From Xestospongia bergquistia (taxonomy: Eukaryota; Porifera; Demospongiae; Haplosclerida; Petrosiidae), in the NCBI GenBank assembly GCA_963965975.1, contig OZ014420.1:5296001-5360000 (forward strand): a stretch of 64,000 nucleotides of DNA, in the 5' to 3' direction. Below, one piece after another: positions 6,901 to 64,000 of this stretch. The notes below the pieces were generated by a model. It was not told the origin of the DNA, searched no databases, and was given only the letters and a program-made list of their open reading frames with translations. The translations under genes and the position numbers were made by a program. Position 1 is the first letter of the stretch. Every line of letters starts with the position of its first letter.

Positions 6901-8041
6901 CATGTGATATTGGAGGTGACCTTTGGGATCATTACGGTAAGATGATTGTTATTTCAAGTCAACAAGATTAAAACGTAAAAATCATACTGTGATCCTTTTG
7001 TCTTGTTAATTGTTACAATAAAACTCTAAAATTGAAAAAAGGTAAAGCCTTGAAACAGAATTAGTCACACCCATTGTTTTAACATTCATGGTAGTGGTGA
7101 ATGAAAAACATTCATTGGTAGTTTACAAGTGCATGTTAAGTTAAAATTCATCATCTCTAATAATAATAACAACATATCGAAGTGGACATCATACATTATA
7201 TGATACATAGTCCAAAGCAAATATAAGAAACTGTTTGTCTTGATAACAAAAAAAATTGTAATATTTCTTGACTTTACATGTATTGATACTTACATAAAAC
7301 ATTGTTTTCTATTAGTCATCAACATGCTACAACGAAGATGATTATATAACAGACCAATCTGTCATCAATCATTCTGGTCCACGTCGTGGAGATACATCTA
7401 TTGTTCTGTGTTCACCTCAAGGGACCTGTTCAACACTTTTACCTGAGCGTCCTCATGATTTTGTTAACTGTGTAGGATATCCTGAGAATTGGCCATTTAT
7501 GAGTGTCCATTTCTGGGGAGAGAATCCAATAGGTAATTGGACAGTTGAAATGAGTTTTGACAGTGATACAGGTGGTGCTAGTCTTGAGTCAATGAATCTA
7601 GTTTTGTTTGCAGTACAAAGCAAACCAGAGGACATAGTTGGTCAATGTGACCCTGCTTGTGCCACACCCACTGGATGTAGTTATGGCAATGGTTCTCAAT
7701 ATTGTGATATATGCGGTAATGGTTATTATCGAAATGCCAGTACAATGGAATGTGTACATAGCTGTTCTCCAGGTGCATGTATTATAGAGGGTACATGTGT
7801 ATTTTATAATGGATCTTGTCCTCAAACTACCACAAGTGGGTTGACTTCAAAGGATATTATTATTATAGCAGTAGTATCTTCGGTACTGGTCATTACATGT
7901 CTTGTGTTATTGTGTGTATGTGTAATACTGTGCTGTACTTGCTGTACAAAAAAGAAGTATCATAGATTAACTCTTCAGAATGAAGTGGAGGAATCTTCTT
8001 ATCAACCTTATGATGTTGTTAAGACCCCAGTTACTGTGTGA
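3923..8041 (+). CDS. Furin/kexin-like proprotein convertase, copy B (complete)
   Basis: Twelve exons: 3923-4087, 4414-4509, 4557-4649, 4877-4985, 5032-5069, 5246-5408, 5764-5936, 6022-6237, 6284-6384, 6435-6641, 6816-6936, 7316-8041; about 735 aa. Order: signal peptide, S8 pro-region ending in a dibasic KR (4596-4601) before the NFSLPSDPYW start of the mature enzyme, catalytic domain, P domain, Cys-rich segment, TM helix, short tail with YDVV. Catalytic Asp 4979-4981 (VIDNG), His 5321-5323 (HGTSCAGE), oxyanion Asn 6064-6066 (SSGNGG), Ser 6332-6334 (GTSASAPL). Acidic residues lining the basic-specific S1 pocket (DSCAADGY, SWGPDDDG) are present, so cleavage after Arg/Lys is expected in the secretory pathway. 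The residue after the catalytic Asp is Asn instead of the usual Asp. The start aligned with copy C is mutated to GTG; the ATG at 3923 is a shifted start. Confidence 0.88.
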
Positions 8042-13796: not shown

Positions 13797-15322
13797 AATT
13801 GAGCATTATGAACATGGTATGATATCTGAGTTAAGGATGTAAATGTATTTCTAGGATACCTAAATGCCTACAAGAAGGGAAGGAGATTCCATAGTAAATG
13901 ATAAATAAATATATAGAATCTCCCCCTCTTGTAGGCATTTAGGTATCCTAGAACTACATTTATGTCCTTAACTCAGATATCATACCATGTTCTTACGCTC
14001 AATTATATATATAACAATTTGAAATTATTAAACAAGGTAAAGAATCTATACAAGATAAATCAATGTCACTATTATTATGGAACATTTTACAATGTTATTT
14101 ATGTACTTGTCTTCAATAGAACTGGAGCTTCTCTGGTTATAACAAAGGATAACCCTTATAAAGGAACAAGACCAATACTTTCTTGGAGTGGACGATACCT
14201 AGAACATGTGATATTGGAGGTGACCTTTGGGATCATTACGGTAAGATGATTGTTATTTCAATTTAACAAGATTTAAATGTAGATATCATTCTATGATAGT
14301 TAATTGTTACAATAAAACTCTAAAAATTGAAGCCAGATTAGTCACACCCATTGTTTTAACATTCATGGTAGTGGTGAATGAAAAGCATTCATTGGTGGTT
14401 TACAAGTGGATGTTAAGTTAAAATTTATCATCTCTAATAGTAACAACATATTGAAGTGGACATCATACATTATATGATACATAGTCCAAAGCAAATATAA
14501 GAAACTGTTTGTCTTGATAACAAAAATAAATTGTAATATTTCTTGACTTTACATGTATTGATACTTACATAAAACATTGTTTTCTATTAGTCATCAACAT
14601 GCTACAATGAAAATAATTATGCAACAAACCCATATGTCATCAATCATTCTGGTCCACGTCGTGGAGATACATCTATCGTTCTGTGTTCACCTCAAGGGAC
14701 CTGTTCAACACTTTTACCTGAGCGTCCTCGTGATTTTGTTAACTGTGTAGGATATCCTAAGAATTGGCCATTTATGAGTGTCCATTTCTGGGGAGAGAAT
14801 CCAATAGGTAATTGGACAGTTGAAATGAGTTTTGACAGTGATACAGGTGGTGCTAGTCTTGAGTCAATGAATCTAATTTTGTTTGCAGTACAAAGCAAAC
14901 CAGAGGACATAGTTGGTCAATGTGACCCTGCTTGTGCCACACCCACTGGATGTAGCTATGGAAATGGTTCTCAATATTGTGATATATGCGGTAATGGTTA
15001 TTATCGAAATGCCAGTACAATGGAATGTGTACATAGCTGTTCTCCAGGTGCATGTATTATAGAGGGTACATGTGTATTTTATAATGGATCTTGTCCTCAA
15101 ACTACCACAAGTGGGTTGACTTCAAAGGATATTATTATTATAGCAGTAGTATCTTCAGTACTGGTCATTACATGTCTTGTGTTATTGTGTGTATGTGTGA
15201 TACTGTGCTGTTCTTGCTCTACAAATAAAATCAAGAAATATCGTGAAGTAACTATTAAGGATGAAGTGGAGGAATCTTCTTATCAACCTTATGAATACGT
15301 TAGAACCCCAATTACTGTGTAA
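10916..15322 (+). CDS. Furin/kexin-like proprotein convertase, copy C (complete, altered pro-site)
   Basis: Twelve exons matching copy B one for one: 10916-11098, 11407-11502, 11550-11642, 11878-11986, 12033-12070, 12172-12334, 12694-12866, 12952-13167, 13214-13314, 13365-13571, 14120-14240, 14591-15322; about 743 aa. Signal peptide, S8 pro-region, catalytic domain with Asp 11980-11982 (VIDDG), His 12247-12249, oxyanion Asn 12994-12996 and Ser 13262-13264, P domain, Cys-rich part, TM helix, tail. All catalytic residues are kept, but the dibasic site at the pro/mature border is replaced by Leu-Lys (11589-11594), so self-cleavage may be lost or done elsewhere, for example at the internal GKR of the pro-region. 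The tail differs from A/B (KIKKYREVTIKDEVEE, ending with a YEYV tyrosine motif). Intron 10 carries a foldback insertion absent from copy B. Confidence 0.88.
13734..14026. mobile_element. Foldback/MITE-like insertion in intron 10 of copy C
   Basis: Arms starting AATTTCAAATTGTTATATAT (13734) and ending ATATAACAATTTGAAATT (14026) are inverted copies; the inner arms share ATGGTATGATATCTGAGTTA and CTAGGATACCTAAATGCCTA. A (TA)n tract lies in the left arm (13749-13798). Copy B has no such insert in the same intron. AGATAAATCAAT occurs at about 13725 and again at about 14053, a possible target duplication, though the second lies 27 bases beyond the arm. Confidence 0.7.
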
Positions 15323-30129: not shown

Positions 30130-32026
30130 TTAGAAGTTGTGATAAGCATCAAAGGAGTGTATGAAATCCAACAACAACTCATGACAGAAAACATAGTGTT
30201 CCTAAAAAAGAGAAAAAGAATTTTGTACATGTTTATACAAGTAGCACATATAGTAGTAAGTGGATATAATATATACCATATATAGAAGGTAGTACATATA
30301 GTATTAAATGGACATAATATATACCATATATAGAAGGTAGTACATATAGTATTAAATGGATATAATATATAGCATATATAGAAGGTAGTACATATAGTAT
30401 TAAATGGACATAATATATACCATATATAGAAGGTAGTACATATAGTATTAAATGGACATAATATATACCATATATAGAAGGTAGTACATATAGTATTAAA
30501 TGGATATAATATATAGCATATATAGAAGGTAGTACATATAGTATTAAATGGATATAATATATAGCATATATAGAAGGTAGTACATATAGTAGTAAATGGA
30601 TATAATATATAGCATATATAGAAGGTAGTACATATTGTATATTGTATCAACAAAGCTATGTCTTTGTATAAACAGCAACATTATAATGTTTAATAGACAA
30701 AATGCCTTCAGTGTACAATATAATTTAAAACACCATTAGCATTGCTATCTTTAAGATTAGAGGTTATCTCATGAGTATATCGTATAAACATGTTATTATT
30801 GATAATGAGTAGTAATATGTAATAGTGAGTAGTCATATGTAATAGTGAGTTGTTATATGTAATAGTGAGTAGTAATATGTAATAGTGAGTAGTTATATGT
30901 AATAGTGAGTAGTCATATGTAATAGTATTAGACATTTAGGTCACAAGTATAATCTATCATTAAGATTCATTATTCTAATTCATGTTGTTGGATTATTAAT
31001 TAATAGACTTACCACATTTTCTACTAAAGCAGGTCTATTAAAACGAGCTCCTTTAATATACTGAAATATATCAGCTACTCCTTCAATTTTGACTCGTTCT
31101 AATGTTGAGTATATACACATGAATGCACCAGTCCGACCAATACCATCACTATTATAATGTAAAGAAGAAAATTATAGAAACACACATACAATAGGAAGTC
31201 TATAGCTGAGAGTATAAAACAAATTATATGATTATGGAAATATTTCTTGACACCATATAGGTGTATGTCAATGTTATAATCAGGGTTGGGGTCAATTACA
31301 TAAGAACAATTATGATTATGATTACACAATGATTATGCAAGGTGATTACAATTACGATTATAGGGAAAAGCATGATTATGATTACGATTACAGATTACAG
31401 ATTACAGTCTAGCAATGACAATAATTATAGGTTTTTTGCAGTCAGCTGCAAATATACAAGATGTAATCAGTCTAAGTACATGTTCTTTCATGCATCATTT
31501 CATAAATTTACACAAGCAGATGCTAGCACAGGTGACATTGTTCCATGTACTACTTGCAAAGGTTACTGTAATTGCTGTAATCACTTTTGATTACAGCAAT
31601 TACTCTGTCTGATTATAATTACAATTACTGATTACACTATTTCTGGAAAGTTGATTATGATTACAATTGTAATCAGCCCCAACCCTGGTTATAATATAGG
31701 TGTATGTCAATGTTATAATATAGGTGTATGTCAATGTTATAATATAGGTGTATGTCAATGTTATAATATAGGTGTGTATTAATTATACATATATATTATA
31801 TAGGCGTGTGTATTAGAATGCCATGAGCTTTTTACACTTTAATTCCCATTACTATTGAGGACTTACTTGCATATAACAGTGATAGCTTTATTTCCAGTGT
31901 TCATTTGATTATGGAGTAATTGGTCTAACAGTTTGAGGAGAGGAGCTGGATCTTTTGGTGCACCATTTTCAGGCCATTCAGTATAATGATACTGTGTGAC
32001 TACAAGATGATCAGCAGAACCCTTGA

Positions 32027-32070
<44 letters not shown>

Positions 32071-35000
32071 ACATTATTCACATTACTCAAGGTATCATCA
32101 CTTACTGTAGACATATTGATGTAGGTATTTTCCTGACTCAAACGAAGCTTGCGAATGACAAAATGATTTTCTTTCTTTTCTGACAACAATTTCACAATCA
32201 TTTTGCCATAACTGGCAATCTCATCTACTTCTTCAGGCCAGTAACGTGCACAGACATCCTACATAACATCAAATAAGATCATATTGCATTATAATAGCAT
32301 CTTACCTCTTCTTCCTCTTGAAGATTACATAACATGACAATAGATCCAGACCACTGTTCCCATATCATACGCCAAAGATCTTCTACAGTGTTCTCTAAAG
32401 GTGCTTGAGTAGCTAAGAATGCACCACGATGTTTATAACCCTAGGAACATCAACAAGAGATGAAAGGTAACATTGAGGACATAGTTACAATTGTATGTGT
32501 TCATGCACTATTATATTGTATTATTAAATGCATTATTGTAATGTATTATTGTAATTTATTATTGTAATGTATTATTATAATGTATTATTATAATGTATTA
32601 TTAAATGTATTATTAAATGTAATATTATAATTTATTATTATATTGTATTATTAAATGCATTATTGTAATGTATTATTGTAATTTATTATTATATTGTATT
32701 ATTATAATGCACTATTATATTGTATTATTAAATGCATTATTGTAATGTATTATTGTAATTTATTATTGTAATGTTAATATTAAAAGTAGTGGCTACTTAT
32801 ATAACAATATTGTCTATACTCACATCAACGTGACTTGAGTTAATATAATCTCCAACACCACTAGTAGTTTTAAGACGAACTCTTGTACTGTCATCTACAA
32901 TGACAATATACACATACAAACATGACACATGTAATGATACACTAATATTATATATAATACTTAGTATTGGTAGTCAAGTATACAGCCTAATATAGGGAAG
33001 ACTAATAGACAACTAGTCATTGTTTATTCCACCAAACAGATAATAGTATGAATGATATTTTATTTGTCTATATTAACAACAATGATATAATAATATGTTA
33101 TAGTGAGGATGCCCCTAGTTATTATAAGATAATTAGATACTTCAGTTCTTACAAGGTAAGGTAGAGATTTTGTCTTTATATCGATTCTTGTCAGAGTTAA
33201 ATTTAGAGAGACCATCAGTACATAGTCCATCAGATGGTTGTCGAGCCACTTGATAAAGAAGCTAAAATAGGACAAATAAACTATTAATAACTGTCTTCAT
33301 TTCAACTGCAACATTCAAATATAGTAAGCCACACCCCCTCTTAAATCTTGGAAGTTCAGTGGGACAGTCCAAGATCAGCATATTTTACTGCTAATCACTA
33401 TAGCCTAAACACTAAACATTAAAGTATATGGTCTGAGGTTGAGACTGTCCTACTGAGCCTTGTCGTAAGATCAGACAGTTCTACAGAACCATTCCTAAAG
33501 TGAAACTGTCCTAATAGACTTTCAAAATGTGTGTACATAACAGTTATTATATTTCTTTATATTATCATGTTTTCTTACTTGGAGTTGATTTTCATAGCCA
33601 GAGTCTTTACTCAAGTCATCCATTTTGGATTTGAGACTTTTAGTTGTCATAGAAGTATCACCACATGTAATATATTCTGATAGAGCATCATGAATATAAA
33701 CATATTGAGCCTAAAAAGAAAGAAACAATGTCCATTAATAAATGTAATATAACTTCTGATATAACCAGCTCAATAGGAATCATTGTTTACAGGTTGTTAT
33801 AACACAATATTATGTACCAGTTAATATTAACAGTTTTTAATAACTAAATCAAATGCTGACATAATTAGGTAGTAAACTGTGGTCCTAAAGTTTCCATAAA
33901 TTCAAATTTTTCTGTTCTTATATCATTATAATAGAAGGCTTAATAATGTATGTTTAATCAAAGTGGGTGGACTGTTATTGTGCCACTCCTCCTCCTACTA
34001 CTACTAGCTTACATCTGCCTGGACCATGAGAACTCTTTTTGTTCTCATATCAGCCACAAATTCGTACACATTTAATGTCTCCTCCTTGTTGTCCAATCTC
34101 TGTAACATACTATCTAATGTGATAAATGTCCCAGTACGACCCACACCAGCACTACAATGTACAATCAAGGGTGGACCATCTGGTGGGTGTGTCTGTCGGA
34201 CACGACGTATAAAAGCAATCATAATTGTTTTGTCAGCAGGGACACCGTGATCTGGCCAGGCTAAGAAATGATAATGTGTAACATCAAGACGACCACCACC
34301 AGTTTCTGAGGTCTATAAAGAAAAAGAACAAACTTTAATTTGAATTTAAATAAATTTCCATAATTTACGAGAATATTCTCCTGAGGTATTCTGACACATA
34401 GGCAATACTACATTGTATGATGACTCACTTAATTGCATATGTTGCATAGTACATGTATATCTTGCTGTATACTTACATTAAGAAGTAAAAATTTCTTGAG
34501 TCTATAATCCACAAATTGTTGTTGTTCTACTAAAGTTACTTTAAGATTATAACCAACATCAAGTGTTTCATTAAGAGAGCGAGGCCAATAAAATGCACAC
34601 TTGTCCTAAAGAAAATAAACAGTGAACAATATCAGTATATGTGTTCCTTTCAACTTACCACTCCTTTCTCTATGCATTCAGTTAACATAACAACAGTTGG
34701 TAGTTGAAATTCCCAAATCATACGCCAAAAATCTCCTATAGTAGTAATCAAGGGACCTACAAAATAGTACACGTATTAGATCTATATACAAATAATAGAT
34801 TATTATATATATATATAGGTAATACATGTATTAGATCTATATACAAGTAATAGATGTATTATATATATATATAGGTAATACATGTATTAGATCTATATAC
34901 AAGTAATAGATGTATTATATATATATACAGATAGTACATGTATTAGATCTATATACAAGTAATAGATGTATTATATATATATACAGATAGTACATGTATT

Positions 35001-38000
35001 AGATCTATATACAAGTAATAGATGTATTATATATATATACAGATAGTACATGTATTAGATCTATATACAAGTAATAGATATATTATATATATATATACAG
35101 GCAATACATGTATTAGATCTATATACAAGTAATAGATGTATTATATATATATATAGGTAATACATGTATTAGATCTATATACAAGTAATAGATGTATTAT
35201 ATATATATACAGATAGTACATGTATTAGATCTATATACAAGTAATAGATGTATTATATATATATACAGATAGTACATGTATTAGATCTATATACAAGTAA
35301 TAGATGTATTATATATATATACAGATAGTACATGTATTAGATCTATATACAAGTAATAGATGTATTATATATATATATAGGTAATACATGTATTAGATCT
35401 ATATACAAGTAATAGATGTATTATATATAATTATATACAGGTAATACATGTATTAGATGTAAGTGAATGAAATCTACTAACCTTGAGCTGCAATGTAAGC
35501 TTTGGGTCTTCTATAACCCTGGAGATAAGAACAATGGCTTTTGACATTGTGTATGTGTGTGTGCGTGTGGGCTTACATTGATGTATGAAGCATTAATATA
35601 ATCTGTGCCAGGAAGATCATCTACTGGAGTTAATTCTATACGACTTGAGTCATCTATAATAAGACAATACATGATAATAATGGCAATTAATTAATAGGGG
35701 TTAACTCACATGGGAAGATATTCTCAAATCTGTTCTTTGGCAAGTTGTGTGGTAGCTTAGAAGCCATATAAGAGCCTTGCGGTGTACGTTTGAAAGTCTA
35801 AGTATATAAAAGGAGAATAGCTATGTGTATAAATATTTTAAACATTTCTATTCTAAGTGCACACTCTATATCACTATTATATCTACTGCTATCAGTTACT
35901 ATCATAATATAGCCTTAAGTCAAGAAGCAACAAGGTGTCCAAGTGTAGGATAAAATACTATCTATCCTTTCTTACACCATATTCTTCTTCAAAGCCAAGA
36001 TCTCTGTTGAAATGTAGTTTAGCTGTGTGAGCAGCAAAGTCTGCCACAGGAACTGCAATCCAATAATCAGAATCATCTAAATATTACACCAAATAATAAC
36101 AAGATCAACACAATGATAATAGTTACCATCTTCAGGTGTAGTCACACCCACTAACTCTAAACCTTTGCCATCTTTATCAGCAGTATTGAGTTCTTTTAAT
36201 GCAAGAGGATTAGTTTGAACAGTTAGTTCACCCTTAACATTTCTGCTCCTGTTGTGTGCATGTGTGTGTGAGAGAGAAAAGGTCAGAAAGATCCTCAAAC
36301 CAGGCCTTGATACATATTATTAGGTACTTATACTCTAACTGTATAGGTACATTACTGTCAATACTATAATATGTATATTATGTTTACAATTAATAATATT
36401 GGCTTTGTTGGTAAAAATATGATAGTAATATATACAATATTAACTGACCTTATATAGCATATGAAGATAATAATAACAACTACTATAATAGCAAATACAA
36501 TAGCTAATATGACAGCTATAGCAGCTACTGCACCACTTGACAGACCACCTGGAGCTACACAACAGAGATACATTTCAGTTATAAACTATTAAAACAGTTA
36601 TTAACATTTAGTATTACCTGGATCAGTAGGTACAGGTGGGATTGTTGGAATGCTATCATTGGACTGTCCTGGTCCACCTCCAGTAGTTGCATATACTGAT
36701 ATACTATAAGCTATATTTGATTGTAAACCAGTAACTTCTACAGTAGATTCTGTAGCTGGTACTGTCTCTGTTATGGCAGTAGCTTGACGTTTACGACTAC
36801 TAACAGGAGTAAGAGTGATGGTATAATTGTTAATGAAGCCATTAGCATTAACAAGAGTTAATGGTTCCCATGAAACACGTATTGCTGTGTCATTAATACG
36901 AGTAGCAGTGACACCTTGAACAATTGGGGGAGCTGGAGAGAGAAAGAGTGAGAGAGATAACATACAAATCACAATTCATGATATACCTCCTTCCTCAGTA
37001 AAGGCAATTTCTGTCATTGCTGTTCCATTTCCAGCACTAGTAGCTGCACTCACATTGATATTATAAGGAATATACTTAGCTAAGAGTAGAATATTATCCA
37101 ATAGTTTCTACATTTTAACAGACTTACTCAATCTTCCAATGATAGTAGCAAATGTAGTACCACTAACATTACTACTACCAGCAATAGTACCATTAGCATA
37201 ATATGTCACTATAACAATATATGAAATAATGATACCATTAGGTGGAGCTGGTTGACGCCATGAGATATTGAAGGATGTATCAGAAAGAGATGAGACTGCC
37301 AGAGATACCACTGAACTAGGAACTATATAATTTAATGATAATATATTAATGATTATAACAATACTTTATACACATACCATCTTCAGCAGTTCTACCAGTA
37401 ACATTTCCATTAGGACCTGAACCAACTCTAGTTGCAGCACTTACAAAACAGATATACTCAGTGTAGGCCTTAATCATTACATTAGTAATGACAGCAGTAG
37501 TACTTATAACAGTCCTTCTATCTACTTCATTACTATCTCCTAACTCAGTACAGTAATAGGTATAATTTATAATGATACCATTTTGTAATGACATTTCAGG
37601 AGGAGCCCAAGATAAAATAAATACATTAGGTTGACTTGATGTGATATTAATGGAGAGAGGAGGACCACTAGGAGCTGACAAACACACAATATAATCAATG
37701 ATGTAATAATGACTACATACCTGCTTGTCCAGTAACATTACTTACACTAGCAGGAGGTCCTACTCCAGCAGCTGTAGCAGCAGTTACATTACATGTATAT
37801 TGTCTAAATGGTTCTAGTCCAGTGAGTATAGCATTCCTCAATGATGAACTATTAGTCATCATATCACTGCTATAATAAGACATTGTAGCATTATCATCAG
37901 AACATGTGTAGTTATAATCAATGATGACTCCATTAGGTTGAGATGGTGGTTCCCATGAGAGATAGAGTGAAGTTGAGCTGAGACTTGTCAATTTTACATT

Positions 38001-41000
38001 AGTAGGTTCACTAGGAGCTATGTATGATCAGTAATAATAAAATAATTAAATAAAGTGATTTTACCTGATTCTGAAGTAATAAAACTGCTAATACTACTGT
38101 TGGTTGTACCGTTAGTATTGACAGATTGCACTTGATAATAATACATAACATTGATATTTAGTCCTTTTATCTTCACATTATATGATATATCAGTAGCTGT
38201 TATGAACATTAAGTTGTCAATATTAGTATTAACAACACTACTGATCATATTGAGTTCATCCATTGATGTACCAAATAATACAGTATAATTTTCTGGTGTA
38301 TATGATACTTGAGGTATAGTCCAGTAGATGGTAGCTGTAGTAGGAGTTACACTAACTGTTCCAAGTACAGGTTGTACTGGAACAGCAGGACCTATAACAG
38401 TTAGTATATATGTCATATATAATATATTGGGTATATAACTATACCTTTAACAATAACTGTGGCACTATCTGTAGTTATTGCTGTACCAATAGCTCCAATA
38501 ATAGTAACAGTAGCATTACAAGTGAAAGTAAATGTACCAGATGATATACCATCAACAGTTAAATTACTCTCAAGTCCATTATTCATAACATTACCAACTC
38601 CATATATATCTTCTTGTGGCCATACAAACATAACAGAGTCTGCATTATAAGTAGGAGGAGTAATGCCAATTTCACAGTTAAGACTGAATATATCATAAGG
38701 TCGTGTGTTCAAACGTGTGATATTAATTGGAGTGACAGTGGCATTTATTACTAAGGAATAAAGTTGAAATCAATATACCAACTGAGTCGAACTGACATAT
38801 AATGTCACTTATTACTACTATAACAAATATTTAGTAATACTGTTTAAATGTACTTACTGATAACAGAGAGAGTTCCAGTATCACTACCAGTAGTTGATGT
38901 CTGTATGTTATTATTACTAGTATGTTGTACCATAGTCTGACAGGTATACTCTCCAGCATTACTAGTAGTGACAGTAGATATGATATATTGTACAGTAAAG
39001 ACACGATCTTGTCGTTGTAGTATGTTCGTATTACCGCCAGATGGAGTGAACATTGTACTAGCCACTGAGAGACCATTTAAATCACTGTTACTAACATGGT
39101 CAGACACTGTGATAGTACATGTAAAAGTAGCTGTATTTCCAGCAATAACTGATATATCATTGAGTGATACATCTGGAACTGGAACTAAAGGAAGAGAAGA
39201 CAAGCAATACAACAGAAATGTTAAATAATTTAGTAAATTAAGTAAATTAATAAGGCATGTATTACCTCATGGCATTGAATATGCTCAATAATAACATTGA
39301 ATATATAGTTATTCCCTCCTTGCTTAGCTATATATAAAATGTGTCAGCAATATGTGTATTTTTGACTGACATGACTAACTTAAGTAGTAAGTTAATAATA
39401 GTGACTACTTTTAAAAGCTTGTTATTGCTTTAATTAAAGTGTTGATAATATTGTAAACAATTTTAAGTTATAAAGAAGGTGTGTCATCTACTCCTAACAA
39501 TCATAGAAAGCTTTTACGCTACATCAACAACACTAACTTTAAAAGTTCTAAGTATCACTGTCTTAGTCCAAAAAACTATACAGAAATAACATTAATTATT
39601 TAAATTCGCTACTAGCAAACTTTTAGCTGCAAAGCTAATAGAACTCACAAGATAGAAACTAGGAAGTAGCCAAAAAATTATAACATGCACAATCTGGTAA
39701 ATATTTTCAAGGTATATATGTACAAGTTTTTACTACGTGTTACTTGTACCTGCACACAGTAAAATATTAAAAGTCACACATTTGTTAATTCACTTTATGC
39801 ATGGGATAAAATCAACACAACAATAATGTAAAGCATTAAAGTATGGAACATTTACTGTTCTATATTCTTTGATGTTGAGCCATCAAAAGGGGGGGGAGGG
39901 GAGAGGAACATTGCAAATTATCAGGGCCCAGATGCAAGATACAGTTACAAACTTAAAATTAAGATTTGAATAAAAATAATTATGCACTATACAACTGTGG
40001 AAGTGGTATTATAATACAAGGATTGCTTGTGCCATTTTGGCATTAATTTTAATGTAGTCACTGATAAAACAAATACATTATGGGACGCTATTAAATCTTA
40101 ACAAATACAGTAGATCAAATTCATCATCAACTCTTTCCAGGTTATCCTATATATTAAATTATATATGATAATGTTTAGATTATATAGTACCAATAGTATG
40201 TACTCACTTTGAACACGAAGAGTTCCAGTGTCATTACTAGTAGTTGATGTCTGTATGTTATTATTACTAGTATGTCGTACCATAGTCTGACAGGTATACT
40301 CTCCAGCATTACTAGTAGTGACAGTAGATATGATATATTGTACAGTAAAGACACGATCTTGTCGTTGTAGTATGTTCGTATTACCGCCAGATGGAGTGAA
40401 CATTGTACTAGCCACTGAGAGACCATTTAAATCATTGTTACTAACATGGTCAGACACTGTGATAGTACATGTAAAAGTAGCTGTATTTCCAGCAATAACT
40501 GATATATCATTGAGTGATACATCTGGAACTGGAACTAAAGGAAGAGAAGACAAGCAATACAACAGAAATGTTAAATAATTTAGTAAATTAAGTAAATTAA
40601 TAAGGCATGTATTACCTCATGGCATTGAATATGCTCAATAATAACATTGAATATATAGTTATTCCCTCCTTGCTTAGCTATATATAAAATGTGTCAGCAA
40701 TATGTGTATTTTTGACTGACATGACTAACTTAAGTAGTAAGTTAATAATAGTTACTACTTTTTAAAAGCTTGTTATTGCTTTAATTAAAGTGTTGATAAT
40801 ATTGTAAACAATTTTAAGTTATAAAGAAGGTGTGTCATCTACTCCTAACAATCATAGAAAGCTTTTACGCTACATCAACAACACTAACTTTAAAAGTTCT
40901 AAGTATCACTGTCTTAGTCCAAAAAACTATACAGAAATAACATTAACTATTTAAATTCGCTACTAGCAAACTTTTAGCTGCAAAGCTAATAGAACTCACA

Positions 41001-44000
41001 AGATAGAAACTAGGAAGTAGCCAAAAAATTATAACATGCACAATCTGGTAAATATTTTCAAGGTATATATGTACAAGTTTTTACTACGTGTTACTTGTAC
41101 CTGCACACAGTAAAATATTAAAAGTCACACATTTGTTAATTCACTTTATGCATGGGATAAAATCAACACAACAATAATGTAAAGCATTAAAGTATGGAAC
41201 ATTTACTGTTCTATATTCTTTGATGTTGAGCCATCAAAAGGGGGGGGGGGGAGGGGAGAGGAACATTGCAAATTATCAGGGCCCAGATGCAAGATACAGT
41301 TAAAAACTTAAAATTAAGATTTGAATAAAAATAATTATGCACTATACAACTGTGGAAGTGGTATTATAATACAAGGATTGCTTGTGCCATTTTGGCATTA
41401 ATTTTAATGTAGTCACTGATAAAACAAATACATTATGGGACGCTATTAAATCTTAACAAATACAGTAGATCAAATTCATCATCAACTCTTTCCAGGTTAT
41501 CCTTTATATTTAGTTATATATGATAATGTTTAGATTATATAGTACCAATAGTATGTACTCACTTTGAACACGAAGAGTTCCAGTATCATTACTAGTAGTT
41601 GATGTCTGTATGTTATTATTACTAGTATGTTGTACCATAGTCTGACAGGTATACTCTCCAGCATTACTAGTAGTGACAGTAGATATGATATATTGTACAG
41701 TAAAGACACGATCTTGTCGTTGTAGTATGTTCGTATTACCACCAGATGGAGTGAACATTGTACTAGCCACTGAGAGACCATTTAAATCATTGTTACTAAC
41801 ATGGTCAGACACTGTGATAGTACATGTAAAAGTAGCTGTATTTCCAGCAATAACTGATATATTATTGAGTGATACATCTGGAGTTGGAACTAAAGGAAGA
41901 CAATAAATACAGCATGTAATTATGCAGTCTAAATACAGAAGATGTGACATAAAGCTAAGTTGGAAATGAAAAATTGGACAAAAATATCAGAAAGTCATCA
42001 GAAAATTAGTACCCAATTAATCAGGTTAACAATCAAGATGAAGACATAATGTGAAAAATTTGTTGAAGGCTTTCATTAATTATTGTTATTAAAATTGTTG
42101 ACAATTTGTCATTATAACAATAATGATTACAATCAAATATTTAATAAGCAACAAATTTACAAAAACTCCTGAGATAGCAATTCTGTGTCTTATATTGGGG
42201 AGCTATACACCATTTGAAAGTAAGCTGACCAAATCATACTACTTTATTTGTATCATACTATTTACTAGTCTAGTTACTGAGTAACTAGACTAGTAACAAT
42301 ATTCATTAGTTGCTATGTGCATCAGTAGTTACTGCATGCAGGTTAATTTTATTCGTCGTTCTCAAAAGTTGCACACAAACAATATAATAAAATGAAGAAA
42401 AGTAGACATACAAACATGGTTAACATGTGGTCCAAACCAATCCTATGATTGCCTGGCATGTGAAGTGTGTCAGGTAATAAAAACTAGAGCACAAGCCATT
42501 TAGGAAAATTACAAACCAGAAATCCCATATAAAGTGAATAATGTTCTTCAGATTCTATCACCATCTGGTGTCATGGATAACTTAACTATTATAAAAATGT
42601 TTGCACAAGCGTTCTCCAGCTTGAGCAGAAAAGTTCAGAAACTGTCAAAAATACCTTTAGAAGTAACAGTAGGCTTAATTAAGAAGAGATCGCTAGCGAC
42701 AAAAAACCACAAAAAGCTTTAATATGACTCACAAAATATTTTGCAACTATGACACCATGCCTAAGTGAGGTTGATGACATAGGCCATTATTGGATTTCTA
42801 CTAAACCACAGTCACCCTCAATGTGAACAAAGTATAGTTAAGAACTATTTTTACTAATTAGTTTCTCTACTAGAAACATTTTAACTACAAAGTACATAAC
42901 CAGGAAGCAACCAGAAAATCTACAACATGCATAAGCTGGTAACCAATTTTCCTATTTACTACCTGCTACCTCAATTAAGAAATTTGATACAGGGGCATAC
43001 TCTTGAGCTAAACTAAAAGCTAAGTTACTAAAGTATGAGGTTGTCAAATACAACCATTAAAACTGCTATGTAGATAAATGTCTAGCTAGACTTTCTGGTC
43101 TCAAAATGAAATCTTGCTGCTTTAATAGGCACTATATTACTACAAAAGCATTAGATCCAATCCATACAAATATGATCTGTCAAGTCTAACATCAAAGCAT
43201 CTACAGTAAAAATATATTAAATTAATTGATCATGACGTGTGTTAGTGATAGAATGAAAATTAATGAACTAAAGGAAGAAAATTAATGCAACAGAAATGTT
43301 AAACAAGATCGTTATTAAAAATATTATCCTATAATTGTTTTGTAAGATACTGAGTGAAGATTAAATAGCTAAACAATTCCACAAATTAAGGTAGAAAAGC
43401 TAATGCTATGAGTATGATAGTTCACACCTATTGTCGTAGTGCTCAAAGTCAGTTATGTCAATGAAATTCATTAGTCGTTATATATTTAAATATATCAATC
43501 AGAGGTTCGATGTAATTTCATTTCATAACACATGGTCTAATTAATTGAAACTTAAGTCAAAGTGTAATTGCATTGTAACTAATAAAATAAGATTATGATC
43601 ATTAAAAATCACTTCAAGTTGTAGAACATCTTAGAAACTACAAATATGATCTATCAAGTCTAACATCAACAGTAAAAGTATATTAAATTAATTGATTGTG
43701 ACTTGTTTGAGTGATAGAATGAAAATTTTGATCAATCAAATAAACAAAACTCCAATAACTCACTTTGTACATTGAGTGTTTCATCATTAGACATCACAAA
43801 AGTAGTGTTACTAGTCAGGTTAGCTCTACATTGATATATTCCAGCATGTGATGTAGTAATAGTACCCTCAGTAGTAAGGATACTTTGTACAGTAACACTA
43901 TCATTAACAAAGGTATCTCCAGTAGTAATGTTTACAAGAGAAGAGGTATCAGTAATGATGACATTATTAAAGAACCACTCAATATTGACAGTATCCATAC

Positions 44001-44120
44001 CACAATATGGTGTAGTACACTGGACACTAACAGAACATTTAAATGTATATGTTGTCATATTACCAGCAATAGGTATTGAATTTGGTGACTTTGTTAAAGA
44101 GACACTTGAAATTGTAATAT
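30130..44120 (-). CDS. LAR-type receptor protein tyrosine phosphatase (5' end not found)
   Basis: Exons read on the minus strand: 43764-44120, 41563-41889, 40208-40534, 38858-39184, 38445-38750, 38065-38391, 37721-38017, 37378-37674, 37128-37322, 36987-37079, 36618-36932, 36449-36554, 36127-36248, 35976-36076, 35710-35797, 35577-35653, 35482-35518, 34659-34756, 34477-34605, 34013-34312, 33579-33710, 33153-33261, 32824-32894, 32306-32440, 32106-32258, 31867-32021, 31013-31148, 30130-30201; at least 1,728 aa, all phases fit. Domains: five Ig, five FN3 (the fourth split by an intron), TM helix (36449-36554), then D1 with KNRFENI, WPDHGVP and [10 protein letters not shown] (34130-34159), intact for catalysis, and D2 with WPENG and CNDGIGRTG, the weak or regulatory form usual for D2. 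It should sit in the plasma membrane and remove phosphotyrosine in adhesion signalling. The signal-peptide exon was not identified upstream. Confidence 0.88.
30260..30635. repeat. 48-bp minisatellite, about eight copies
   Basis: Unit AAATGGATATAATATATAGC plus CATATATAGAAGGTAGTACATATAGTATT-type sequence, 48 bases long. Because 48 is a multiple of 3 it leaves a long artificial open frame on the minus strand. It lies in the last intron of the phosphatase gene. Confidence 0.92.
30806..30925. repeat. 20-bp minisatellite
   Basis: About six copies of GAGTAGTAATATGTAATAGT with small changes, last intron of the phosphatase gene. Confidence 0.85.
31273..31695. mobile_element. hAT-type MITE with 8-bp target duplication
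   Basis: Element 31281-31687 starts CAGGGTTGGGGTCAATTAC and ends with its inverted form GTAATCAGCCCCAACCCTG. GTTATAAT stands directly on both sides (31273-31280 and 31688-31695). CAGGG ends with an 8-bp duplication are the hallmark of hAT transposons. The inside (about 407 bp in all) is made of GATTAC/GTAATC-like repeats and has no transposase, so it is non-autonomous. It inserted into a 24-bp tandem repeat. Confidence 0.88.
31688..31775. repeat. 24-bp tandem repeat flanking the MITE
   Basis: GTTATAATATAGGTGTATGT plus CAAT repeated about four times; one more copy lies left of the MITE. Confidence 0.8.
32024..32068. repeat. (GA)n microsatellite abutting a splice acceptor
   Basis: On the coding (minus) strand this is (CT)n followed by CCCTCTCAAG and then the exon ending at 32021. 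It fills about half of a 79-base intron and forms its pyrimidine tract. Confidence 0.88.
32515..32780. repeat. Degenerate TATTATTGTAATG repeat
   Basis: Irregular reiteration of GTATTATTRTAATG-like and TTATTAAATGCATTATT units in an intron of the phosphatase gene. Confidence 0.75.
34765..35460. repeat. 59-bp minisatellite, about twelve copies
   Basis: Unit: ATTAGATCTATATACAAGTA, ATAGATGTATTATATATATA, then TACAGATAGTACATGT. Copies differ mostly in the length of the internal TA run. It fills almost the whole 725-base intron 34757-35481. Confidence 0.92.
38875..41889. repeat. Tandem triplication of an Ig exon with its intron
   Basis: Exons 38858-39184, 40208-40534 and 41563-41889 are all 327 bases and nearly identical, and the introns 39185-40207 and 40535-41562 (1,023 and 1,028 bases) are nearly identical too, differing by a few bases and a G-run length. 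Period about 1,350. The first exon ends differently (VI instead of RVQ), so the duplication edge lies near 38875. Confidence 0.92.
42240..42720. repeat. Dispersed repeat copy in a phosphatase intron
   Basis: 42300-42450 matches 62515-62720 in reverse complement, including ACATGTGGTCCAAACCAATC and ATATAATAAAATGAAGAAAA. A following part, ACCAGAAATCCCATATAAA near 42510-42530, recurs at about 45905-45935 and 49330-49365. A 17-bp palindrome with a one-base loop (42262-42296, TTACTAGTCTAGTTACT) lies at its left edge. Probably an uncharacterised transposon family. Confidence 0.65.
43155..43720. repeat. Old direct repeat around a lost Ig unit
   Basis: 43155-43260 and 43625-43720 share ACAAATATGATCTRTCAAGT, TATATTAAATTAATTGAT and GTGATAGAATGAAAATT. 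GAACTAAAGGAAGAAAA at about 43265 resembles the flank of the Ig exons at 39181 and 40531, as if an older Ig-exon unit had been here and decayed. Confidence 0.55.
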
Positions 44121-45929
44121 CTAAATGGAAGTTAATGGAAAATAAATTAATATAGTACTCAATAATATCATTATCATATGATATAGTATAATTATTATAT
44201 CAAGAAAAATAGTAATTGTGATTGTTCATAAACAGAAAAGTATATCTAGCAATTATATTTTTGTTATTAAATAAAATAATACTACAGATAATTATATATT
44301 TACAAACACTATAGTATTGTTAGTTATAGTCAGTTAAGACTTAAAAGAATGCTATAATTGTAAAACAACAAATAAAAAAATCATCGTCTAATTATTTCAT
44401 AAACAAAACATTTGAATTAGAGAAGTAACAGAGAAAATACAAACGCTAGAAGGCAGAAAAACAAGCTAGTTGGCCTGAAAAAGCTCAATCTGCCAAACCA
44501 TTATCAAAGTGCTCACAGTTAAAGATAATAAAATTCATTGGTTGGCGAGTGTATCAGGAAGTTTATACATGATGTTTAATTATATTCTTCACTTTTAATT
44601 GTCACATTACAATAATAGAATAAAACAATTCAAGTGGACATAACAATTATAGAAATATTCAGCACATTGTACATGTCAGACAGGTACACACCTAACATGC
44701 ACTGAGTGCCAGGTGGTCCAAGGATTGTTTTAGGTCATGTGTGTATATATAAAGATATGGATATTTTTATCATTTTGCATTATTTTATTTAATTGTTGTA
44801 TGCAACTTCAAAGAGCTACAAATGTAATCAAATTGGGAGTGACTTGTTGCTTTTGTAGCTCAAGAAAACAGAGCAGCTCTATAGTTTCTGACTACCTCTC
44901 AGGTCTTCAAACTAGCAAAATTTCAGACCCATAAATCAAAAATAGTATATTCCAAAAAACTTTTAAGTTGATTTTTTTTTTTTTCAGTAAACATATGAGT
45001 CAAAAAATTTTTAAAATGTATAGTTAGTTAATGCTAATCAAATCTTTATTGATATAACTTAAAAATAACAGATCTACCTACACTTGATAATTTTTCTCTT
45101 GTTTATATCCCCACCCACAAAAGTAAACATCAGTATTGCTATTTTAATTACATTATAAATTAACAAAATATATTAACATTTTAAAATATAAACAATTATA
45201 CTCAATCCCACGAAATATGGTACAGTATCCTATCTAGTCCACCCACTCACTATAAACTATAGACCATTGTCTACATTCTATCACTATAATGTAATAATAT
45301 CTAATCATTACTATATTAAATTAACTAATGACTTAACAACTTCAGAGAACTAGAAATGAAATGATAACTAAATACACTAGGGTATATTACAAGTTATAAT
45401 ATATTACTATCTCTAATGATTATATCATTACTACAGTATTATCTAGAGTATAATATGTAACAATATCTACTGTATACTAGTATTACCACTAGATACAGGT
45501 ATGGTATCTAGTGATGGTAATTGTGAAAGAAAAACAACAAAGATATTCCCTCTGTTATAAAAACAAATATTACTTAATAGAATTATTTATAAAGAGAATG
45601 TGTAAACTTCACAATAGTTTAAATAAACGAAGTTTACTGTCATACACTAAATTAGAATATAACAGCAGTCACAACATCAACACACCGTTTAATAACGTTA
45701 TAATAACTTGCGTTAATATTATTGCAAACACACTTGATTCATGTTTACATGAATATTCTCTGTCCAATTTGAGTCTGATTTCTGACTCAGTGTTTTATCA
45801 CAGATTTATGAATAAGCTAGAAAGAAACAGTTTGTACCATTCAATATATCTTGAAACTCTGCTTAAAATTAATAAATAAAGTTAGAGCACTAACTGTTCA
45901 GGAAAATAGCAAACTAGAAATACCATATA
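44121..45929. other. Sequence upstream of the first recognised phosphatase exon
   Basis: AT-rich, without a convincing exon on either strand. It should belong to the first intron(s) of the phosphatase gene if the signal-peptide exon lies further right. An open frame of 122 codons at 45511-45879 has no recognisable domain and is not called. Confidence 0.4.
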
Positions 45930-53900: not shown

Positions 53901-54335
53901 GAGTTGTGACGTTTGATGTGGTTTCACTGTTATTGCATTGTTATCATAATAGATAGCTATCAATTACATACTTTTTTGATTTGCTTACTGAGAAGTTATT
54001 GTAGGTTCTGAAGTTGGTGTTCTTAGTAAGCTTTCTTTTTTGTGCTACCATTAATGAAGAATGACTAAAATAATCACAGTTCAAATTTTCTTTGGCTATA
54101 TATTTAATTTCTTTCTGTAGGTCGTCTTCCTCCTCCTGGTATGCCACCCATGGCAGGACGCGGGATGCCTCCCCCTGGGATGCCCCCTCCTGGTATGCCA
54201 CCCCCAGGGATGCCACCTCGTGGGCCTCCTGTTCCCCCTCCTGGAATGAGAGGTATATACAAACAGTACATGTTCACTAACATATTCTTACTATCTATAT
54301 ACATAGGTCCACCTCCTCCTGGTGCACCAAGATAA
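50909..54335 (+). CDS. SNRPB: Small nuclear ribonucleoprotein-associated protein B (SmB/N)
   Basis: Seven coding exons: 50909-50911, 50987-51247, 51298-51403, 53542-53616, 53675-53749, 54121-54252, 54307-54335; 226 aa. The first holds only the ATG. The Sm fold fills residues 2 to about 88: Sm1 with [20 protein letters not shown], and Sm2 with [20 protein letters not shown]. The rest is low-complexity Gly/Arg/Pro sequence ending in repeats of PPPGMPP, the proline-rich tail typical of SmB that binds WW/GYF splicing proteins. SmB is part of the heptameric Sm ring on U1, U2, U4 and U5 snRNA. Intron 3 (2.1 kb) is unusually long for this gene and carries a foldback element. [14 protein letters not shown] is a strongly conserved part of the family. 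A perfect NRF1 site precedes the gene. Confidence 0.96.
51443..52024. mobile_element. Foldback element in SNRPB intron 3
   Basis: Arms 51443-51593 and 51874-52024 are each 151 bases and near-perfect reverse complements (CCTGCGAAGCTGATATAATT at the left edge, AATTATATCAGCTTCGCAGG at the right), with a 280-base centre that has no coding sign. Equal arms with sharp edges suggest a MITE or foldback transposon; no certain target duplication was found. Confidence 0.85.
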
Positions 54336-54860: not shown

Positions 54861-55512
54861 CTAGACTAAATTTTCACTAATTTTTTTTAGCACTGTATAG
54901 GTAGCATTAGGAAAATCTGACATTCTTTCATCTAGCCATGTTTTTTGGCTGATGTTATTATGTGACTGTAGTTTTCTGAGTGTTTTATATATTTTCCACA
55001 AGTCTGACTTGATTTTTCTAAATATCATGAATTCCATTAAGTAACTGTAAAATTCATCTTCATTGCAAGACAAGAAGGAAAAAGAAGTGACATTCTTTAT
55101 CTATACAACAAATACAGCATAATATGATCATAGTGTATGATAAAGAGACTTACCCAATGACAAACTTTTGTCAATGTAACATTAAGCTCATTCAGAGTAG
55201 TGTTTAGTTCATAACTAGTACTAGCAGAGCCTTCTTGTGTAAGTATTTCATGCTGTATTTGTTTATGATATTTCATCAATTGAAGAGTCTTATTGACAAT
55301 ATTAATTGTTACATCTTGTGTTGAGGTTTGCTATATTATATATACATATGACTAAACAAAGATAATAATACATGCTAAATTACCACAACAGAACGAGCAG
55401 CTCCTAATCCTGCAATCATATCTCTATGTCCTTCTGGTATTTCACAAGTGTTGGTCCAAATTATGAGACTGGTCAGTAATAAAAAGTGAAGGCACACAGC
55501 TTCCTTAACCAT
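54861..55512 (-). CDS. Short secreted, probably helical protein 1 (unknown family)
   Basis: Three minus-strand exons, 55384-55512, 55154-55330 and 54861-55100, all phase 0, give 181 aa. Residues 1 to about 22 are a signal peptide (CLHFLLLTSLIIWTNT). The mature chain has no TM segment, five N-glycosylation sequons (NKT, NTT, NVT twice, NAT) and Cys 23, 100 and 114. Sequence looks like several amphipathic helices: DMIAGLGAARSVV; NIVNKTLQLMKYHKQIQHEI; LNTTLNELNVTLTKVCHW; EDEFYSYLMEFMIFRKIKSD plus LWKIYKTLRKL. Size, helices, glycosylation and phase-0 introns recall helical cytokines, but I recognise no family signature. It is head-to-head with the gene at 55985, which has a similar CxW and CN pattern. 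Function unknown. Confidence 0.75.
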
Positions 55513-55984
55513 GATATATAATAAAGAAATTAAAGTAGTAGTTTAAATTAAATTGATGTCGATACTGGCACTTTTTCTGTCTTTTATAGAATAGAATATT
55601 TCATCATAGCTGAAATCATGCATGAAGGGGAAGATAGACTTGCAAAATTGCTACAATTCAGGAAATGTATTAAACTAAATAAGAAACAACACACTTTGTT
55701 TCCAAGGATCCAGAACACAGAACTAACAATGCATAAAAAATCTCATTTTTGAGACAAAGCAATTATAATTATTGCATAACTTACCAGTCAACTATTGAAA
55801 TCCCATCCACATTGTTCATATGTATATATGGTATGTCTTAGAATTGTCTCTGGCTGCAATATATATGTTAGTTGCCAAAGGGTAGTTCCATGAATGTATA
55901 CTCTAAGTCTTATAAAAGAACAGCTAGGACATGAACAAAGTTTAAATCAAAGAAACTAAACAACAGTCATTCATAAGATATAGT
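55513..55984. promoter_or_regulatory. Shared region between the two divergent secreted-protein genes
   Basis: 472 bases between divergent start codons; probably holds both promoters and 5' leaders. No specific motif recognised. Confidence 0.45.
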
Positions 55985-56500
55985 ATGTTTCTTCAAAGCA
56001 GATTCTTATTGTTTGCCCTTTTTGCTACTCTCATAGCCTATACATGGACTCTACCTTTAGGAGCGCTAGTGACAAGAAATGCCAATTTTGAACCACTCCT
56101 GGTATAAGAAAAAAATTAAAGTCTAACAGTTTCATTTTTTCATAGGAAAGTGAACTGGACAATTTGCTGTCATCTCTTTCAAACAAGAGTGATCCTGACA
56201 CCCTCTGTAATGTTACCGTTGAACGTGATGTTTATACACAGCTAGGACAACATGATTTTATTGAACACAAGGCTGTAAAAGTTGTAATAGATCTTGCATT
56301 TAAGGAAATGTGCCAATGGGTAAATAAATATAAATTTCTGGAATTGTCCAATCAGGTATGTGAAAGGAGCATGCATGTCACTAGATAGTTTATTTTTTGC
56401 TTTTGTTTAGCTATATGAACTCTTTTCAATCAATTGCAATGTGCTGCTGGAGTCATTTTGGAGAAAGTATATACGTCAATTAATAAATTGTCATGATTAA
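55985..56500 (+). CDS. Short secreted, probably helical protein 2 (unknown family)
   Basis: Three exons, 55985-56101, 56146-56355 and 56411-56500, all phase 0, give 138 aa; introns are 44 and 55 bases. Signal peptide at 1 to about 22 (FLLFALFATLIAYTWT). The mature part has four Cys (60, 95, 118, 136), two sequons (NKS, NVT) and helical stretches (ESELDNLLSSLSN; AVKVVIDLAFKEMCQWVNKY; LLESFWRKYIRQLI). No TM segment. The order CQW, then CN followed by a helix with aromatic residues, parallels CHW and CN in the divergent neighbour (spacing 23 against 14), so the two may be distant paralogues that share three-exon phase-0 structure. Family unknown; a small secreted ligand is an inference. Confidence 0.72.
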
Positions 56501-61157: not shown

Positions 61158-61184
61158 GCAAATCCAATAACTAGTCAAGCCACA

Positions 61185-64000
61185 ATGGCTGAAATATGTA
61201 ACAATAAAAATAATTCCCAGCTCAACAATAAAAATACTACAACCACATATAATGGGAACTCTTCACTCATGGCTGCAATTCCACCACTCATACAAGCTCC
61301 ATCTCTACCAAATACTGCCGCATTAAACGAGGGGATGTCAAAAGCACCATCTCGTAAAATCCCTCCTAAATTGATCAAAGTGGTAGATGATCCTTTAAGT
61401 GAGAGTTCTGAAATATTTCCTTCGGTGGCATCTACTCTAGACATCTTTAAACCAATATTTACTGCATCTAAAGCTCCAGAGAATTCTCCTTTTTCAATTC
61501 CTAAACTTGTACAAGCCACACCCATTACTTTGCTTTGCAATAACTCAGCAATAGCTACTGTTCCTAAGCTCATACAAGTCACACCCACAGCACCACTTTC
61601 CATGACACCTCCTATTTCTAAACCTGTACAAGCTACACCCACTAAACCCCTTACAATGATTAATATTCCTAAACCTGTGCAGGCCACATTTATTGCATCG
61701 TCTTCCAGTAAATCATCAATGGTTACTGTTCCTGAGCCTGTACAAGCCACACCCATCATATCGTCTTCCAATAAATTGAATACAGATACTGTTCCTAAGC
61801 CTGTACAAACCACACCCATCATATTGTCTTCCAATAAATTGAATACAGATACTGTTCCTAAGCCTGTACGAACCACACCCGTCATATCATCTTCCAGTAA
61901 ACCATCAACAGGTACTGTTCCTAAGCCTGTACAAACCACTCCCACCATATCATCTTCCAATAACTCAATAAATACTGTTTCTAAACCTGTACAAGCCACA
62001 CCCATCACATCATCTTCCAGTAAATCATCATTGGCTACTGTTCCTAAGCCTGTGCAAGCCACACCCATCACATCGTCTTCCAATAAATTATCAATGGGTA
62101 CTGTTCCTAAGCCTGTGCAAACCACACCCATTGGATCTACTAATAAAGAACTGTTAAAGACCACACCTCTTGCCATCAGTCCATTGTCTGATAAAGAGTC
62201 CTCTCTGGATACATTGTCCAATTCAAATACCAAGTGTCGTCGAAGAGGAAGAGGATGTGGCAAATGTGAAGGCTGTACTCGTGATGATTGTAAAACATGT
62301 TCATATTGTTTAGACAAACCTAAATATGGTGGACCAGGAAAAAGAAAACAACGTTGTGCTTTAAGAATTTGCTCTCAATTTGTAAGTTAACACTTTAATT
62401 TGTATATGTAATTAGGATATTAAAAAGAAGTAAATCATTAACTGGAACTTTTACACAATAATTTATTTCAATGTGTGATAGTCTTATTGAGTTGGAAGTC
62501 ATTATTAGGACTACATGTGCTAAGCAGTCCTAAGATTGGTTTGGACCACATGTTAATTATATTTGTGTTTCTAGTGACTTTCTACTTTTCTTCATTTTAT
62601 TATATTGTTGTATGTGACTTTCGAGAGTGACCAATAAAATTAACCCCATACAGTAACCACTGACCCAAACAGCAATCAATGTATATCATTACTTTTACTG
62701 CGAGTTCTTTGATTTGAGTATGAATCTGTTACTTCTTTGAGCATATACATGGCTTCTGCCAACTCTTCAGTCTTCAAAGTTAGCAATAATCCTGTCCCCT
62801 TATAGCAACAGCAATGCTATCAAAATAATCTTAGAATAATTAAATTTAGCCAAGCTTAGCTTACGCATAATTTATGAAATTGTGTGTGTCGTATAATTTA
62901 CTTTAGCTAGTTTTGTACACATTATTGACTTTTAGTAATTATAATAGTTTTGTACAACTAAAACTAAAACTATTAAAAAATCAGTACATGGAATTAAGAC
63001 TAAAGTTTGTCTTGTCAGATTGATTACAAATTCTAACTTTGCTGTGCAGTTTGTTACAAAGTTGATTTTAATAGCATTGGATTCCTCCTCTCGGTATTCT
63101 TATTAACAACCTTCTATGTCAATTTATCCCATATAAGGAATTATTTCTATCTCCAAAGTCAAAACAGAGTATTTACTAGCTACTAGCTAAATGACAATAA
63201 TGTAGTCTTAATTGAAGGCATTTAATAACAGAGGAAGTGGAATGTAAGCACATACCAAAGGAGGAAGACTGTAACTCATTTAGACCAAAATCTACTTAGC
63301 TGTCACAACCAAAGCTATTCAAAGGGTTTTTCTGATGAATTTTTAATAAGTGATCATGAATACTTTGTTAACCATAATTGCATTATAAATATGACTACAT
63401 GTAATCATGTCTACTCTTTGTTATACATAGTATATCTCCTTCACTACTTTGACCATATATGGAATGTACTGATGACTCTAAATTTTTGTGGTATAATTAT
63501 TTCATTGCACATAGTCACAAAATAAACAGTAGTAACCAAAAAAAAACAGAAATTATATATTATGTATTATTCAAACAATGAAGCAAATGAGAAAATGAAA
63601 GCATCCATGAGCATGCTATTCTTAGGCTAACTTTAATCTCGTAGTTAACCATTAGACCATTTGAGATGCTGCAAAGTCTTGTAGTTTGTTCAAGTAGTTC
63701 AAGTTAGGCAAAGAGACTTGGCAGAAGATATAGCATAAAGTACAATAGTTAAGAGGGATTATAACTTTTCATTTTTTATCACGAAACAAAAGGTTTTTAG
63801 ACTGTAAATTTTAACTCTATGATAATAATTGTAAAGACTCATTATTAGCTACATTATGTAAATTTCATTCTCTTTGTTATAGCAAGCCGCTCCAGGAGTT
63901 AAAAATACAATCCATACTCCTATTAAAGCAGCTTCTGTAATGAATTCCTCAGCTATAGATCAAACAGACACCACAGAGAGTGTCCCTACTACCACCTCAT
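61185..64000 (+). CDS. CXXC zinc-finger protein, 5' part (runs off the window)
   Basis: Exon 61185-62381 (399 codons) and the start of a second exon, 63883-64000, phase 0. Residues about 110-325 hold roughly ten degenerate repeats of 20-23 residues built on VPKPVQATPITSSSSK-like units, Ser/Thr/Pro-rich and probably unstructured. A CXXC domain closes the exon (about 62234-62375): CGKCEGC, DDCKTCSYC, the KYGG turn, KRKQRC and LRIC, giving the eight zinc-binding Cys of a domain that binds unmethylated CpG DNA, as in KMT2, CFP1, KDM2, DNMT1, MBD1 and TET. Which subfamily cannot be told because the downstream part is missing. Nine in-frame codons precede the ATG after the acceptor at 61157, so an upstream start is conceivable. 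Confidence 0.85.
62515..62720. repeat. Dispersed repeat, inverted relative to 42300-42450
   Basis: GATTGGTTTGGACCACATGT, TTTTCTTCATTTTATTATAT and the following 80 bases match the phosphatase-intron copy in reverse complement. It lies in the intron after the CXXC exon (62382-63882), which is otherwise AT-rich and without recognised features. Confidence 0.7.

Follow-up and report, generated by a model that had tools for sequence, protein, structure and literature searches.

What are the two small genes that stand back to back in a 64,000-nucleotide stretch of the genome of the demosponge Xestospongia bergquistia, and do they belong to something larger? The stretch (contig OZ014420.1, here C10, positions 5296001-5360000) is referred to as the window, and the genes as A and B. 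An earlier reading made from the letters alone, the sequence-only reading, had described them as a divergent pair of secreted proteins with the layout of helical cytokines. We suggest, with a probability of about 0.4, that A and B belong, as two of its divergent members, to a lineage-specific demosponge family that evolves fast and consists of disulfide-stapled, secreted helical bundles acting as short-range ligands.

The gene models of A and B share the same layout (Table 1). Each has three exons, all four introns are in phase 0 with GT-AG borders, and the start codons (55512 and 55985) point in opposite directions with 472 bases between them. Gene A, on the minus strand, encodes 181 amino acids and gene B, on the plus strand, 138. 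Both N-termini are hydrophobic and of the signal type, as judged by eye, and N-x-S/T sites occur six times in A and twice in B. The sequence-only reading is borne out on all these points, i.e. the exon structure, the signal-type starts and the presence of potential N-glycosylation sites. As for the cysteines, CHW precedes SCN in A, and CQW precedes NCN in B. The second donor of gene B is uncertain, as GTAAAT at 56320, right behind CQW, also preserves the frame. We note that phase-0 introns are common in general and prove nothing by themselves.

The genome (146.46 Mb, 21 contigs) was searched at the protein level, and 244 kb of the region was read. With A as the query, paralogues were found approximately 26 and 39 kb downstream; B matched only itself. 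The two genes stand at the start of a 45-kb cluster (C10:5350861-5396214) of eight genes in the order A(-), B(+), F(+), C(+), G(+), D(+), H(-), I(-), and a remnant of an exon 3 lies near C10:5369734. All eight cluster genes have three exons, all 16 introns are in phase 0 and all eight products have a hydrophobic N-terminus (by eye). Intron 2 lies directly after C-x-W in five of them and after a variant of this motif in F (SQW) and G (CHQ), that is in seven of eight. Gene B is the exception, with a donor 36 bases later; its in-frame GTAAAT is exactly at the position common to the others. The queries C and F uncovered a second array on contig C1 (26.730-26.767 Mb, seven places) as well as a single C6 locus at 7.835 Mb, a copy whose first exon is broken. 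Six of the seven C1 places were read: four hold intact, nearly identical genes (K040-K043) and two hold broken copies, with a stop in exon 1 (L038) or a frame break in exon 3 (L047). Query C also matched C10 at 6.518 Mb, which is an intact gene, E, with the three-exon phase-0 layout of the cluster; E in turn found itself, C (E-value 3.9e-5) and D (E-value 0.004), and H and I gave themselves and weak matches only. Among the members read there are at least 13 intact ones (eight in the cluster, four on C1 and one elsewhere on C10), all 13 with the same layout, and broken copies besides. The count is a lower bound, since more divergent members could escape these searches. The "ligand pair" of the sequence-only reading therefore understates the number of genes, of which A and B are only two, and the ligand role is that of a candidate. 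Eight kb from gene E, a segment at C10:6510298-6510399 (-) matches member C weakly (E-value 0.21) and is a possible further member.

How firmly A and B are tied to this family was assessed with a profile built from eight other members (C, D, E, F, G, H, I and K041). Gene A scored 55.4 bits (E-value 8.9e-16), as compared to 12.3 for the best of 993 scored shuffles. Gene B scored 15.4 bits, as compared to 11.7 for the best shuffle (1000 made with the first 22 residues kept, 993 scored). When a profile of exon 2 from which A and B had been left out was run against 5060 open reading frames (ORFs), A was found at an E-value of 1.2e-8, and B ranked right behind it at 0.43. As both genes score above shuffles, the suggestion that they are paralogues holds. 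The membership of A can be considered secure at the level of sequence and that of B weaker; B is placed in the family by its profile score, the three phase-0 exons, the C-x-W motif, an LPLxA..TRN start as in C, the TATA box and the location, taken together.

The sequence-only reading had also derived A and B from an inverted duplication. A clade of A and B was present in 0 of 200 bootstrap trees, both with 13 and with 10 proteins, and in a four-way BLAST comparison (A-D) the best match of A was C, and B was closer to D and C than to A. These results do not support such an origin, but forcing the two together in the 10-protein tree cost only 1.62 log-likelihood units and was not rejected (approximately unbiased test, p 0.33). 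Both proteins form long branches in the trees. A common origin in one inverted duplication thus appears neither shown nor excluded.

The pattern TATAAA[AGT] was found at -62 to -93 from the ATG in ten of the 11 family genes examined (A -76, B -74, C -68, D -62, E -93, F -74, H -82, I -82, K040 -77, K041 -76), a range that was fixed after the hits were seen; K040 and K041 are near-copies, so the count corresponds to nine of ten independent genes. No such box was seen in the upstream region examined of gene G. Across the 244-kb region, a related pattern, TATAAA[AG], has a background frequency of 0.57 per kb on each strand. Because A and B each carry their own TATA box, they probably have separate core promoters pointing away from each other over the 472 bases. 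The idea that they stand under one promoter is consequently unlikely, and enhancers common to both are possible.

Of the 13 intact members, 12 have both the Cys of C-x-W, or of its variant, and a second Cys shortly after the start of exon 3. Member F has neither, and its relatives K040-K043 retain both; from this joint loss and joint retention we infer a disulfide bond between the two positions, with the caveat that the exon-3 Cys of gene B falls into a different alignment column from that of the other members. Most members, not including A, have additional Cys residues in the C-terminal part, and the C-termini are variable. The sequence-only reading had described a common C-(H/Q)-W followed by C-N. 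This order is present in A and B, but C-N is not a family trait: the relatives show C-T or C-S at that place, and F has no Cys there. As for the amphipathic helices that had been proposed, a periodicity of 100 degrees is clear in the averaged profile for exon 1 (p 0.0015), a part close to the end of exon 2 (p 0.0015) and the exon-3 helix (p 0.0005), the p values being uncorrected for the number of windows tried.

The ratio of nonsynonymous to synonymous changes (dN/dS) was considered for the 36 of 91 pairs with dN below 0.7; A, B, E, H and I are outside this test (dN 0.7 or more). Pairs that link C, D, F, G and the C1 copies, of which 26 are listed, gave 0.40-0.72 (0.50 for C versus D). Many dS values are near saturation, and four of these pairs, including the one at 0.72, involve the broken copy L047. 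Within the C1 array (10 pairs) it ranged from 0.19 to 2.78 on the basis of very few changes. C, D, F, G and the C1 copies are under coding constraint, but the constraint is loose. A few residues into the mature chain, Arg sites (e.g. KRQ, RRQ, FSRQ, TRN) were noted by eye in B, C, D, E, F and the C1 copies and were not evident in A, G, H and I; propeptide processing at these sites is possible.

Comparison with known families gave no explaining match. With the eight cluster proteins the best Pfam E-value was 0.0067, and seven families, VAPB_antitox, IZUMO and KIP1 among them, were found at E-values up to 1, in each case with a single member; there was no cytokine model among them, and the bit scores, where shown (A, B and C), were all under the curated cutoff. 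IZUMO (PF15005) was matched by member C only, one of the eight, at an E-value of 0.0098 and with 17 bits, the cutoff being 25. A search of PDB with the family profile returned no hits at E-values up to 10. In the PDB sequence search, A matched entries called Ika8 (E-value 1e-5) and Ika4 (E-value 0.034), where no single stretch passes alone, and B matched nothing convincing. The earlier statement that no known family is evident thus stands; the family is real and apparently unnamed within the protein-family libraries and the literature searched.

In the reading that we prefer, tandem duplication would both grow and erode the family, as is suggested by the two arrays, the near-identical recent copies and the broken ones. 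The products would be secreted small bundles of approximately four helices with N-glycosylation sites and disulfides; the TATA promoters may provide inducible or cell-type-restricted transcription, and A and B would be transcribed from separate promoters rather than as a single unit. Outside the cell the mature proteins would bind other proteins as a short-range signal between sponge cells, i.e. they would be "cytokine-like" by role more than by descent. The helices in the weak model of A, a STAT_bind match over the Pfam cutoff in this genome and the STAT response described in Amphimedon (PMC13372038) would fit this reading.

Several observations weigh against this reading. With a single sequence as input, AlphaFold modelled A as a helical bundle of low confidence (mean predicted local distance difference test score, pLDDT, 54; predicted template modelling score, pTM, 0.50) with helices at 43-74, 79-107, 116-150, 155-162 and 165-180, four of them long; the model of B, obtained likewise, was uninformative (pLDDT 44, pTM 0.26). 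The amphipathic periodicity is weak or absent outside the parts named above; the first half of exon 2 is not significant except for one window (p 0.04), and the averaged profile supports the claim of amphipathic helices only in part. Sequence alone places B in the family weakly (15.4 bits; exon-2 profile E-value 0.43). Upstream of the family genes, NF-kB, STAT, IRF, AP-1 and ETS patterns gave nothing consistent, and the JAK domain FERM_F2 was not found in this genome, in a search whose control gave no match either. Finally, tandem clusters and fast evolution suit immune effectors, gamete proteins or carriers equally.

Next in standing is the view that these are secreted antimicrobial or anti-predator effectors, that is bundles which bind microbes or membranes and were diversified in an arms race. 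Tandem birth and death, near-identical recent copies, broken copies, variable C-termini and TATA promoters would all be expected of such proteins. Yet none of the Pfam matches is to a known effector domain, and several N-glycosylation sites together with Cys pairs are atypical of pore-forming helices. We regard effectors as an unlikely but serious explanation. Proteins of gamete recognition or self-recognition seem considerably less probable. Abalone lysin and the bundle of IZUMO/SPACA6 are fast-evolving secreted helical bundles of this type, and the fast evolution of the sponge family as well as the sub-threshold IZUMO match of member C would fit; nevertheless, IZUMO is seen at E-values up to 1 in just one of eight members, under the cutoff, and the gene models contain neither a membrane anchor nor an immunoglobulin (Ig) part.

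It is also improbable that the proteins are true helical cytokines, homologous to the bilaterian ones and signalling via STAT. The signal-type start and the helical prediction agree with this, and so do the phase-0 introns, which resemble those of the IFN-lambda and IL-10 genes of vertebrates in the accessible part of PMC2654155. A STAT_bind match above the Pfam cutoff is present in this genome, although a search with a partly back-translated peptide of the Amphimedon STAT gave no match, and JAK and STAT are both reported in Porifera (PMC13203501, as far as the text was accessible). On the other hand, no cytokine is found among the Pfam or PDB sequence matches, and, as read from the family alignment, the A-B linkers have approximately 6-15 residues and the C-D linker is very short in the C1 copies, lengths that would hardly seem to allow the crossovers needed in an up-up-down-down bundle and thus speak against the classic cytokine topology. 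Of the cytokine layout put forward in the sequence-only reading, probable secretion and a probably helical fold remain; the linkers do not support it, and the single-sequence models are weak. On the receptor side, CRLF3, a class I cytokine receptor found from Cnidaria to mammals, is reported to be absent from Porifera (accessible part of PMC6797617), and IL6R is traced from Mollusca on only, with IL6 in vertebrates only (in what was accessible of PMC13203501).

In a bolder version of the ligand reading, the family would be the signal that passes between sponge cells and sends STAT into amoebocyte nuclei. It would then amount to a non-bilaterian cytokine system, either of independent origin or too diverged to be recognised, and A and B would act as ligands in it. 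When Amphimedon meets live native bacteria, STAT moves into the nuclei of amoebocytes in which no bacteria are detectable; the authors invoke an intercellular signal and, in the accessible part of the paper, name no cytokine (PMC13372038, 2026). The cytokine idea is attractive because the sponge ligand is missing, yet the lengths of the linkers make it less likely that the family descends from the helical cytokines of bilaterians; we see this version as a long shot. Much the same can be said of carrier or matrix proteins, i.e. bundles that hold lipids or build the mesohyl matrix. That A and B are chance ORFs is hardly credible: B is short and weakly matched, but the identical layout in 13 of 13 intact genes, the TATA position in 10 of 11, the profile scores of A and B above shuffles and the coding constraint among C, D, F, G and the C1 copies all speak against it.

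If the ligand reading is followed, its interest lies in the fact that sponges have STAT and a reported JAK (accessible part of PMC13203501) but no identified cytokines, and 13 intact candidate genes make the question testable. Even if the proteins are not ligands, they would form an apparently unrecognised secreted family on an early animal branch, conserved in gene structure and very divergent in sequence.

Table 1. Exons and TATA boxes of genes A and B (positions in the window).
Feature	Position	Strand	Remarks
Gene A exon 1	55384..55512	-	signal-type segment and onset of helix 1; 43 codons; donor GTAATT
Gene A exon 2	55154..55330	-	two helical stretches, C-H-W at the end; donor GTAAGT immediately 3'
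Gene A exon 3	54861..55100	-	SCN with the conserved Cys; a long amphipathic helix; C-terminal end; stop TAG
Gene B exon 1	55985..56101	+	signal-type segment, then LPLxA..TRN, same in paralogue C
Gene B exon 2	56146..56355	+	C-Q-W at 56311-56319; in-frame alternative donor GTAAAT at 56320
Gene B exon 3	56411..56500	+	NCN and short aromatic-rich helix; stop TAA; the C-terminal region that other members have is mostly lacking
TATAAAAG of gene A	55581..55588	-	76 bases upstream of ATG
TATAAAAG of gene B	55911..55918	+	74 bases upstream of ATG

Other features of the window and its surroundings were also recorded. GMPPPG-rich exons at 54108-54335 (+) converge on gene A and have no Pfam match; we take them to resemble the tail of small nuclear ribonucleoprotein (snRNP) protein B. 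About 11 kb from gene A, exons resembling a receptor-type tyrosine phosphatase lie at 31866-44199 (-); one Ig and three fn3 matches exceed the cutoff, another Ig match is weaker, and one exon is of the Y_phosphatase type. Between A/B and the remaining cluster there is an ORF (61158-62387, +) with a CXXC zinc finger and, by eye, degenerate KPVQATP repeats. At the other end of the window, three ORFs of 238-243 amino acids (480-1193, 7316-8038 and 14591-15319, all +) have near-alike starts (SSTCYNE...) and a spacing of approximately 7 kb, and pieces resembling a reverse transcriptase of the long interspersed nuclear element (LINE) type are found by eye at 1879-2863. Farther along C10 (5435363-5466015, L019-L022) is a tandem array of ORFs of up to 1248 amino acids with, by eye, a signal peptide, a long outer part and many membrane helices; two of these ORFs (5454180-5457923 and 5462272-5466015) have equal length and the same start. 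A cathepsin-type exon at C9:3183978-3184200 (L055) has the sponge silicatein alpha as its best PDB match, in keeping with a demosponge, and a Cys (CCSCYAF) in place of the catalytic Ser.

Among known systems, the vertebrate helical cytokines (IFN-lambda/IL-10 and class I) are like the sponge proteins, as these are predicted to be, in being small, secreted, helical, disulfide-bonded, multicopy and fast-evolving, with phase-0 introns (PMC2654155, accessible part); the sponge family differs in having no sequence match to them, three exons, two helical stretches in exon 2 and linkers between helices that look too short for cytokine crossovers. The IZUMO proteins share a helical region with Cys and the one sub-threshold match, that of member C, but the Ig domain and the membrane anchor have no counterpart in the sponge gene models. 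The likeness to plant pectin methylesterase/invertase inhibitors is one of arrangement only, with 8% identity and a low-confidence model. Insect Unpaired (Upd) proteins, the ligands of Domeless, are described in the accessible part of PMC13203501 as secreted JAK-STAT ligands outside the vertebrates; the Pfam and PDB searches gave no such match for the sponge proteins, and a direct comparison of the two was not made.
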